A stretch of 64,000 nt of DNA from Pseudooceanicola sediminis (GTDB lineage: Bacteria > Pseudomonadota > Alphaproteobacteria > Rhodobacterales > Rhodobacteraceae), in contig NZ_QWJJ01000015.1 of assembly GCF_003575965.1 (NCBI RefSeq), positions 80,459 through 144,458 on the forward strand. Reading direction: 5' to 3'. Shown piece by piece: positions 4,542-63,730 of this stretch (positions are counted from its first letter, which is position 1; the number at the start of each line of letters is the position of its first letter). The notes under the pieces are model-generated. The model worked only from the letters and a program-made list of their open reading frames with translations. It had not been told where the DNA came from and made no database searches. The position numbers and the translations under genes were made by a program.

Positions 4542-4589
4542 GACACCGTTCGGATACCGCTCAGATACCGTTCAAATACCGACGTCGAC
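4542..4589 (+). repeat. GATACCG 11-bp periodic element, copy 1
   Basis: Four heptamers, GACACCG (4542), GATACCG (4553), GATACCG (4564) and AATACCG (4575), sit at exactly 11-bp intervals, and the last runs into ACGTC. The element lies in the 3' untranslated part of the recR transcript, between the stop codon and the terminator. A related inverted sequence, CCGACGTCGGTGTC, lies at 4633-4646 against the recR stop. Related copies are at 22817-22861, 58602-58634 and 63578-63610. Confidence 0.75.
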
Positions 4590-4644
4590 ATTCTGCGAAA
4601 TCAGGGGCTTAGCCGTCTCCCGGGCGCAAATGCCGACGTCGGTG

Positions 4645-5238
4645 TCAGATATCCTTGCGCGCCCGCAGCGCGGCGGTGATCGTCCCATCGTCCAGATAGT
4701 CCAGCTCGCCGCCGATCGGCACCCCCTGCGCCAGCGATGTCAGCCGCACGCGGCCTTCCAGCTGGTCGGCGATGTAATGCGCCGTGGTCTGCCCGTCAAC
4801 GGTGGCGTTCAGGGCCAGAATGACCTCTGAAATGCCTTCCTCTTCAATGCGTTGCACCAGAAGAGGGATGCGCAAATCGTCCGGGCCGACGGCATCCAGC
4901 GCGCTCAGCGTCCCGCCCAGCACATGATACCGGCCGTGAAAGCTCGCCCCGCGCTCCATCGCCCAAAGGTCAGCGACGTCCTCGACCACGCAAAGCTCTG
5001 AATTCGCGCGCTTTTCGCTGGCGCAGATATCGCAGATCCGTGCACCGCCCAGGTTGCCGCAGCGATCGCATTCGCGCACCGTCACCGCGACCTGGTGCAT
5101 CAGGTCGGCCAGCGGCGTCAGCAACAGTTCCCGCTTGCGGATCATCTGCAAAACGGCCCGACGGGCGCTGCGCGGCCCCAGCCCGGGCAGCCGCGCCATC
5201 ATGTCGATCAGCGCATCTATATCGCGTGAGGCGCTCAT
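4645..5238 (-). CDS. recR: Recombination mediator protein RecR
   Basis: 197 residues. RecR works with RecF and RecO to load RecA onto gapped DNA. The helix-hairpin-helix [15 protein letters not shown] occupies residues 17-31, a C4 zinc finger uses Cys57, Cys60, Cys69 and Cys72, and a Toprim domain starts near residue 83 with [12 protein letters not shown]. It is the last gene of a dnaX-ybaB-recR operon, six bases after ybaB, an order widespread in bacteria. Confidence 0.97.
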
Positions 5239-22816: not shown

Positions 22817-22861
22817 GACGTCGGTATCTTGACGGTATCGAAGCGGTATCCGAACGGTGCG
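22817..22861 (-). repeat. GATACCG 11-bp periodic element, copy 2
   Basis: Read on the minus strand: CGCACCG, GATACCG, GATACCG, GATACCG, the last running into ACGTC. Plus-strand positions of the units are 22855, 22844, 22833 and 22822, exactly 11 bp apart. It lies in the gap between the fnrL terminator and the uspA stop. Confidence 0.75.
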
Positions 22862-58601: not shown

Positions 58602-58634
58602 GGTACAGACACGATACCGACAGGATACCGACGT
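58602..58634 (+). repeat. GATACCG 11-bp periodic element, copy 3, in the leuD leader
   Basis: A degenerate GGTACAG (58602), then GATACCG (58613) and GATACCG (58624) at 11-bp spacing, running into ACGT (58631-58634). It ends 24 bp before the leuD start codon and only 11 bp before its ribosome site. Confidence 0.7.
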
Positions 58635-58657: not shown

Positions 58658-59263
58658 ATGGAAAAGTTCGAAAAACTCTCGGGGATTGCGGCGCCGATGC
58701 CGCTGGTCAACATCGACACCGACATGATCATCCCAAAGCAGTTCCTCAAGACGATCAAGCGTTCGGGCCTCGGCGTGAACCTGTTCGACGAGATGCGCTA
58801 TAACGACGACGGCAGCGAAAAGCCCGATTTCGTGCTGAACAAACCCGCCTACCGCGATGCGCAAGTGCTTGTCGCCGGTGACAATTTCGGCTGCGGCTCT
58901 TCGCGCGAACACGCGCCTTGGGCACTGGCGGATTTCGGCATCAAGGTCGTGATCTCGACCAGCTTTGCCGACATCTTTTTCAACAACTGCTTCAAGAATG
59001 GCATGTTGCCCATCGTCATGCCGCAAGAAGTCGTCGATGTCCTGATGAGCGATGCGGAAAAGGGCGCCAACGCCCGGATGGAAATCGACCTTGAAAACCA
59101 GACCGTTACCACCTCGGACGGAGAAGTTTTCAGCTTTGAGGTCGACAGCTTTCGCAAGCATTGCCTGATGGAAGGGCTGGACGATATCGGTTTGACGCTG
59201 GAAAAATCCGCCGCCATCGACACGTTCGAGGCCCAGGCCGCCCAGGCCCGCCCCTGGGTCTGA
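58658..59263 (+). CDS. leuD: 3-isopropylmalate dehydratase small subunit
   Basis: 201 residues. [20 protein letters not shown] is the typical start, [16 protein letters not shown] the substrate-binding signature, and [18 protein letters not shown] follows. It completes the LeuCD isomerase. CAGGAG lies about seven bases before the ATG at 58658. The leader carries a GATACCG periodic element. A strong terminator follows. Confidence 0.97.
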
Positions 59264-62945: not shown

Positions 62946-63730
62946 CGGGCTTCCCGGTTCTCGCAACCTCCCTCCCTCCCTCTCTCTATCTTTGATATCG
63001 CTGCGCCGATGCGCTCGCGGGCCGGCGTAACCCAACAGGCGACCCCGCCCGCACGCCCCGCAATGCTCTCCCCTCCCTATTAAGGGTAGGGGGCGTCCGC
63101 ACCTCCGTCTCGCTGCGATCCTCTCGCGCATTGTCAGCAGGGGGCGGTTCGTCCTGTGGGTCCGGTGACATCTCTCCGGCCTGATACGCTCACTTCTCCA
63201 TATGGCCGCATGGGTGGTGCGCCTCTCCATTGCGGATGTGGCGCGCGCTTTTGGCTTTCCTTGTTCAGCACCCCGTCGGGTTGGTGACAGGGCAGGGCTG
63301 TGCAAGGTCTCATTCTGCCGGATAAGGCCTGCCCTCCCGTTCCCGGATCCGAAAGTGCAGGCGTAAGGCGGGCGGTCGACCGGGGGGGCGTTCCCTTCCG
63401 GTCTGTGCTGGACCCCGACGCGACCCTGCGCCTCCCGACTTGGCCCTGCCGTGCGACCTCCCCGGGCCAGCGGCGTCGCTTTCCCATCGTCGGCTCAGGC
63501 GTGTGAGGGGGCGGATACTCACGACAGCGCAGGGGCTGCGCATGTCCCGCATCTGGCGGGGGGCTGATTACCGCAATCGCACCGCCCAGATACCGCCCAG
63601 ATACCGACGTTGAAACCGCAAGTGACTCGTAAGGGGGCGGGAGGCGCCTGCCCGGGGTCGTTCATCCTCCGGGGAGAGAGATTCGAGTCGCTTGCCGGTC
63701 GATTCCCGGTGACTCCGGGCAGGTTTTCGC
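62946..63730. other. Gene-free interval after tRNA-Pro
   Basis: About 785 bp with no gene I can support. Long frames on the minus strand are antisense readings across the tRNA or low-complexity Arg/Pro-rich sequence without ribosome sites. The only structured item seen is the GATACCG element at 63578-63610. It probably separates the protein-coding region from a stable RNA operon to the right. Confidence 0.6.
63578..63610 (+). repeat. GATACCG 11-bp periodic element, copy 4
   Basis: CGCACCG (63578), GATACCG (63589) and GATACCG (63600) at exactly 11-bp spacing, the last running into ACGT (63607-63610). It lies about 295 bp before the putative rRNA promoter. Confidence 0.7.

Follow-up and report, generated by a model that had tools for sequence, protein, structure and literature searches.

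Helically phased, polar arrays of short direct repeats in chromosomes of the Rhodobacteraceae as candidate direction marks

The window analysed here is a stretch of 64,000 nucleotides of Pseudooceanicola sediminis DNA (contig NZ_QWJJ01000015.1), which includes the genes recR and leuD and carries, at four sites, heptamers related to GATACCG that follow each other at an 11-bp step, are separated by 4-bp linkers and end with a last heptamer running into ACGT (Table 1). An earlier note, made from the letters of this DNA, had described the four sites in these terms, and each of them was confirmed in place; the four window sites are real. Copy 2 lies on the strand opposite to that of the other three copies, and the local skew is positive there.

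Table 1. Positions of the repeat arrays, their accompanying elements and neighbouring genes in the window.
Feature	Position	Strand	Composition and context
Copy 1	4542..4585	+	GACACCG-TTCG-GATACCG-CTCA-GATACCG-TTCA-AATACCG-ACGT; four units; 63 bp past the recR stop
Type I tail of copy 1	4586..4618	+	Segment like AAATCAGGGGCTTAG; resembles other type I copies (by eye)
Single reversed unit near copy 1	4629..4646	-	Adjoins the recR end; inverted repeat with the array end
recR	4645..5238	-	TIGR00615; context of copy 1
Copy 2	22818..22861	-	CGCACCG-TTCG-GATACCG-CTTC-GATACCG-TCAA-GATACCG-ACGT; four units
Copy 3	58602..58634	+	GGTACAG-ACAC-GATACCG-ACAG-GATACCG-ACGT; two exact units and one weak unit (GGTACAG); 27 bp before the leuD start
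leuD	58658..59263	+	TIGR00171; context of copy 3
Copy 4	63567..63610	+	ATTACCG-CAAT-CGCACCG-CCCA-GATACCG-CCCA-GATACCG-ACGT; two exact units and CGCACCG, then ATTACCG one step further out; followed by the type III tail (TGAAACCG)

At copy 1 the array end is paired with the reversed unit downstream in a 15-nt inverted repeat (arms 4578-4592 and 4629-4643). At the other copies, the search for inverted repeats gave nothing at copies 2 and 3 and nothing tied to the array at copy 4. In the host (4.44 Mb, 54 contigs; G000), the distal palindrome CCGACGTCGG was present within 100 bp downstream of 4 of 54 arrays, palindromes similar to that of copy 1 following three other host arrays. Alignment of 40 regions around listed matches gave a typical host copy of the form CACCG-N4-NTACCG-N4-GATACCG-N4-GATACCG-ACGT, followed by one of several tails. 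The final ACGT was common in the host (81-87% per letter in 53 arrays) and was no rule in other lineages. Across 94 arrays from genomes with the ATACCGACGY word the tail was T-rich near +14 and +24, with TTAAC near +35 and ATTC near +45 (positions counted from the last ATAC, each at about 40-70%), and its A/T tracts recurred at a period of about 10-11 bp; phased A/T tracts were likewise visible in the host composite. Recurring tails were recognized by eye at unrelated host loci, one tail occurring at three loci, and this recurrence at unrelated places suggests that tails have been copied within the genome. Arrays at the host loci L081, L085 and L089 are followed by ACGCAGGCACCGACGT[TG]CCGTTT, a tail of more than 20 bp being common to these three unrelated loci.

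A count against chance, which the earlier note had proposed at the level of the genome, came out clearly in favour of the element. In the window, exact GATACCG-N4-GATACCG was found five times, and in 200 dinucleotide shuffles not once; with three mismatches allowed, the two-unit pattern gave 12 window matches against a shuffle mean of 5.0, with one of 100 shuffles yielding as many. In the host genome, the two-unit pattern at up to two mismatches gave 371 matches, with neighbouring units of one array counted separately, versus 43 for the reversed pattern, and the pattern including the ACGT end at up to one mismatch gave 135 versus 0. Of a set of eight host matches, C10:10767, which lies in a gene, and C10:88028, a weak match, were left out of the arrays. 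Matches were present in 7 of the 23 genomes of the genus, five of these having 14 to 135 and two having one each.

Comparison with Pseudooceanicola spongiae (G016; about 84% identity to the host) revealed an array at the same place and in the same orientation at five orthologous sites, namely the four window copies and a further site upstream on the same contig. In the 19 units aligned at these five sites, 73 of 76 positions of the ACCG core were identical, as against 38 of 76 linker positions (Fisher P 4.5e-11), in good agreement with the proposal of the note that the heptamers and their spacing are kept while the linkers vary; the same plan recurs elsewhere with other words, as described below. 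The array in front of leuD is degenerate in P. spongiae, and arrays in front of leuD were also present in G015 and in L326/G549. For the host array at C10:502, no matching stretch was found among the P. spongiae regions fetched. No array was seen at recR in genomes G001, G017 or G012, and turnover of arrays therefore exists. Inspection by eye of the gap in front of leuD in G001 and G012 showed a small lipoprotein-like open frame where the array would be.

The host-style pattern was detected in 20 of 394 genomes of the family, control matches numbering 2 in total. A looser TACCG pattern was found in 62 of 390 genomes and 37 of 139 genera, single matches being at the control level, and 19 genomes had at least 10 matches. 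The reversed control of this search itself gave at least 10 matches in six genomes and thereby led to a second word, CCATACGCNNG; the reversed pattern is no valid null for words containing CATAC, and the CCATACGC word was found in this way. ATAC at 11-bp steps in four units was present in 60 of 390 genomes, several of them with a single match, and in 38 of 139 genera, the other 330 genomes having no array by this four-unit pattern. Further words were ACCCATACCRG, GTCATACNNGA and TATACGGGATA. In other genera the 11-bp period and the ATAC core are kept and the rest of the word differs, and some bacteria of the family carry tens to over a hundred arrays. In the counts of shared flanking genes and of overall polarity given below, G327 and Salinihabitans flavidus were treated as one genome, as were G287 and the LacPavin MAG. 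The order-level search returned, according to the kinship column, only genomes of the family of the host; one listing held at least 116 loci, of which 32 were outside this order and were left out of the analysis. A pattern scan of IMG/VR gave 24 stretches, one of which (L406) had the ACGY word while the others resembled other repeats by eye, and BLAST with one array against plasmids and phages gave no match, a weak negative since a repeat query may be filtered.

The genomic place of the arrays was examined in the fetched loci, in which 13 of 214 arrays overlapped a called gene, genes being called by a simple hexamer model. Among the 192 arrays with both neighbours, 125 were in tandem gaps (145 kb), 40 in convergent gaps (44 kb) and 27 in divergent gaps (73 kb), the gap lengths having been taken from the same array-bearing loci; with 27 arrays in 73 kb of divergent gap, promoter gaps are therefore depleted. 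Stop codons were nearer to the arrays than start codons, and some arrays lay 20-30 bp before a start codon. By eye, some copies were found beyond the terminator of the upstream gene and copy 1 before it. Flanking genes were shared between genera in 32 of 63,153 pairs, as compared with 109 of 517,266 flanking/non-flanking pairs and 319 of 953,848 non-flanking pairs, a modest excess. The same gap, with both neighbours, was occupied in the host and in L301 (LivG-like/LivH-like), in the host and in L324 (arfB and a queuosine precursor transporter) and in the host and in L233 (dnaJ-radC), where only the linkers differ. The same was true of the gap before lpd in L321 and L314, and one neighbour was in common, on the same gene side, at leuD and proS. 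These gene names were assigned from one member each, LivG and LivH being below the NCBI cut-offs, and the cases of L301 and L314 could be due to chance, each being the sole array of its genome by the ATAC pattern.

As a proxy for replication polarity we took, in loci of at least 6 kb, the GC skew of third codon positions after adjustment for the strand of each gene, so that the direction of replication was derived from GC3 skew and not from mapped origins. The ATAC strand was opposite to the skew-positive strand, that is, the G-rich, leading-type strand, in 137 of 160 arrays and in 112 of 118 at |z|>=3 (Fisher P 6.5e-25; one duplicate removed). The same orientation was seen in convergent gaps (35/37) and in divergent gaps (17/20), and in tandem gaps both where the genes run with the skew (43/51) and where they run against it (36/45), the one duplicate being included in these counts by gap type. 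The earlier note had also allowed for an RNA role, which these results do not support: the arrays are oriented by the replication-type skew, whichever way the neighbouring genes run, and some copies are, by eye, placed past the upstream terminator. An RNA element was rejected for this disregard of transcription, and the reading of the arrays as marks of the 3' end of an antisense gene was superseded by the polarity. In a held-out set of 40 regions with other words, which were fetched afterwards and in which 28 of the 40 arrays came from four genomes of one genus, the same orientation was found in 38 of 40 arrays; with a cut at |z|>=2 the count was 33 of 34, and with a cut at |z|>=3 it was 30 of 30. 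Of the two arrays that disagree, one has a printed z of -3.0 and falls just under this last cut. The exceptions to polarity comprised 8 of 54 arrays in the host, 4 of 10 in G327, 3 of 13 in Shimia, 2 of 14 in P. spongiae and 2 of 34 in Roseovarius, and the polarity in G327 (6/10) and Shimia (10/13) is thus weak.

Among the matches listed for G439 (ten of 14 and ten of 15), the 11 distinct arrays change strand a single time: those as far as 1.20 Mb lie on the minus strand and those beyond, the first at 1.60 Mb, on the plus strand, close to where the skew goes from positive to mostly negative. All 9 windows sampled for skew as far as 1.47 Mb were positive, and of the 11 further along 7 were negative; four of the 11 windows after 1.6 Mb were still positive, three of them at 2.0-2.4 Mb among plus-strand arrays, so that strand and skew fit incompletely beyond 1.6 Mb. 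The proxy was checked with GGGNAGGG, for which the skew-positive strand accounted for 127 of 186 occurrences in the host, 73 of 109 in P. spongiae and 26 of 45 in G439, a check that is partly circular since the motif is G-rich. The octamer GCGGGTGT, which we take to be the Chi octamer of Caulobacter, was on this strand in 35 of 43, 15 of 29 and 2 of 4 cases in the same three genomes. The complete chromosome of P. spongiae has many sign changes of the GC skew, which suggests many inversions. Strand-run tests on P. spongiae and G314 gave no significance.

The arrays of P. spongiae were also spaced more evenly than expected, with a coefficient of variation of the gaps of 0.65 versus an expected 0.98, a value to which none of 2000 simulations came down (92 arrays up to 3.69 Mb, obtained by merging listed matches), and this evenness held against a minimum-distance null (0/1000 each). 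Likewise, spacing was more even than chance in G191 (P=0.0002; C6:277081, which has another word, was left out) and in G439 (P=0.006). In the other five of the eight genomes, namely the host (with some in-gene matches kept in the list), G015, G120, G017 and G314, it was no more even than chance; the lists used for spacing were incomplete or restricted to the exact pattern, which may hide regularity. The 11 arrays among the matches listed for G439 were spread evenly along the chromosome, and no enrichment towards a terminus, which is not mapped in this genome, was seen among them. The earlier note had covered neither the polarity nor the differences of word between lineages, and neither the phased AT-rich tail nor the regular spacing in some genomes.

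From the near-complete orientation to the skew, the phase that is kept while the word changes and the recurrence in some of the same gaps, all of which were established by computation, as were the sites themselves and the conservation of the core, we infer that the arrays are protein-bound direction marks under selection. The explanation we prefer, with slightly better than even confidence, is that of head-to-tail arrays bound by an oligomeric protein and marking the direction of the chromosome in the manner of KOPS or Ter sites. That such a protein would read one face of the helix had been suggested at the outset, and this part of the proposal appears to be supported by the phase, the conserved core and the free linkers. 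Each element would be a polar array of about three to six sites, one per helical turn (11 bp), and with the A/T tracts that follow many copies at about the same period, some 40-100 bp might be gripped on one DNA face. The array could then act as a one-way mark or valve that is permissive from origin to terminus for the replication fork, a chromosome translocase or an SMC complex, a one-way mark being the likeliest use because the polarity is near complete and independent of gene direction. Several units per array would allow the word of the protein to shift gradually with every array still bound, and copying between arrays, to which the shared tails point, may help to homogenise the word within a genome. 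More tentatively, and with less than even confidence, we suggest that the arrays may form a new chromosome-wide direction code, consisting of helically phased one-way arrays on both arms, with a word that drifts by lineage and a reader that co-evolves. The drift of the word would in that case stem from the redundant units of each array, and the code would guide forks, translocases or SMC complexes or serve them as a valve; arrays and reader would evolve together much as centromere repeats do with their proteins.

The strongest rival, because of the copied tails, the palindromes near a minority of arrays and the patchy presence, is a selfish dispersed repeat (REP- or MITE-like) that enters gaps via single-stranded lagging-strand DNA and would thereby be oriented to replication without any host function; single-strand transposons do have an orientation bias. 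This account we consider unlikely, although it would agree with the tails shared at unrelated loci, the 23 short matches of the copy 1 element in P. spongiae, the restriction to 7 of 23 genomes of the genus, the intergenic place with depletion in divergent gaps, the inverted repeat by copy 1 and the distal palindrome at 4 of 54 host arrays. The arrays are, however, direct repeats, which at copies 2, 3 and 4 have no array-linked inverted repeat; at orthologous sites the core is kept and the linkers drift, arrays with different words occupy some of the same gaps across genera, and the spacing is regular in three genomes. The near-complete replication polarity of the arrays makes it very improbable that they are DNA uptake sequences that differ in dialect between lineages and have been enriched because such DNA is taken up preferentially, even though the dialects, the place between genes, the even spacing in some genomes and the phased A/T tracts after a core would fit. 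The uptake sequences of Haemophilus and Neisseria have dialects, an intergenic bias and a core plus phased A/T tracts, yet such sequences are not known to be polar with respect to replication and occur in far greater numbers than the arrays, which are moreover almost absent from genes. Operators of a global transcription factor, for instance a response regulator of the OmpR/PhoB type with 11-bp repeats, are suggested by the plan of 7+4 bp direct repeats, which is that of PhoB boxes, by the TGA-N8-TGA of CenR and by the arrays 20-30 bp before start codons; we regard this as improbable, as against it stand the depletion in divergent promoter gaps, the stops that are nearer than the starts and an orientation that follows the skew and not the gene. 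CenR, according to the accessible part of one report (PMC9275681), binds TGA-N8-TGA, and a CenR operator was rejected because this motif does not match the array word.

Two further readings refer to known machinery. That the arrays are the KOPS of these bacteria is hardly credible, in spite of a polarity of the same kind, GGGNAGGG likewise having a bias towards the skew-positive strand. All 38 genomes searched for FtsK-gamma have it, and by eye the stretch YNKAARLVEQME is constant in 30 FtsK-gamma segments, from genomes with different words and from seven in which no arrays were found; the few changes before YNKAARLVEQME do not follow the words. KOPS are disfavoured because this recognition stretch does not vary with the words; in addition, the listed G439 arrays are spread over the chromosome, and the array words are ATAC-based and do not match GGGNAGGG, as which KOPS have been mapped, in strains including Cereibacter and Paracoccus, according to the accessible part of PMC13342612. 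In G151 a second FtsK-gamma-bearing protein (745-aa open frame) was observed beside the usual FtsK (G151:C2:61261-61437), and it is perhaps plasmid-borne. Start sites for packaging by a gene transfer agent would also be conceivable, as phased repeats with bent DNA resemble small-terminase sites. The order is reported to have well-conserved homologues of gene transfer agents. Nevertheless, this reading is extremely improbable, since it leaves the replication polarity without explanation and the small terminase of RcGTA is reported, in the accessible part of PMC6854486, to be non-specific, with no packaging site known.

No description of the words or of the phenomenon was found in the accessible parts of the open-access literature searched, the part of PMC7901474 that could be consulted containing no matching motif, and in this respect our search accords with the earlier note, whose author knew of no described family. 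If the preferred reading of protein-bound direction marks is true, it points to a new reader protein and a directional process and would add another member to the known polar chromosome marks (KOPS, Chi, Ter), which are few in kind. The lineage words would then provide a natural series in which to study the joint change of specificity of a protein and its sites, of which there are up to over a hundred, and in draft genomes that have them the arrays could indicate which way replication runs.

Among described systems, operators of the PhoB, CtrA and CenR type resemble the arrays in their head-to-tail sites about 11 bp apart, whereas the arrays have no promoter association and an orientation set by replication. 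REP, BIME and other dispersed intergenic repeats are like the arrays in numbering tens to hundreds, in lying between genes close to gene ends and in having copied tails; the units of the arrays, in contrast, are direct, helically phased and polar with lineage-specific words, and a palindrome is found near a minority only. With DUS and USS the arrays have in common the dialects, the intergenic bias and a core with phased A/T tracts, and they differ in being replication-polar and far fewer. Ter sites with Tus or RTP are strictly polar protein-DNA marks that are permissive to forks from the origin, and the arrays would be alike if they act in this way; Ter sites are, however, few and terminus-centred, whereas the arrays number up to over 100 and are spread over the chromosome. 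AIMS are described, in the accessible part of PMC5993296, as strand-biased octamers that are shared by clades and enriched towards the terminus; strand bias and sharing within clades are found in the arrays as well, but these are 40-bp elements, and no terminus enrichment was seen among the 11 listed arrays of G439. The arrays are like KOPS in being polar with respect to replication, chromosome-wide and in the same direction on both arms, and they differ in that KOPS are one conserved octamer, whereas each array consists of 3-6 phased units, is intergenic and has a lineage-specific word.
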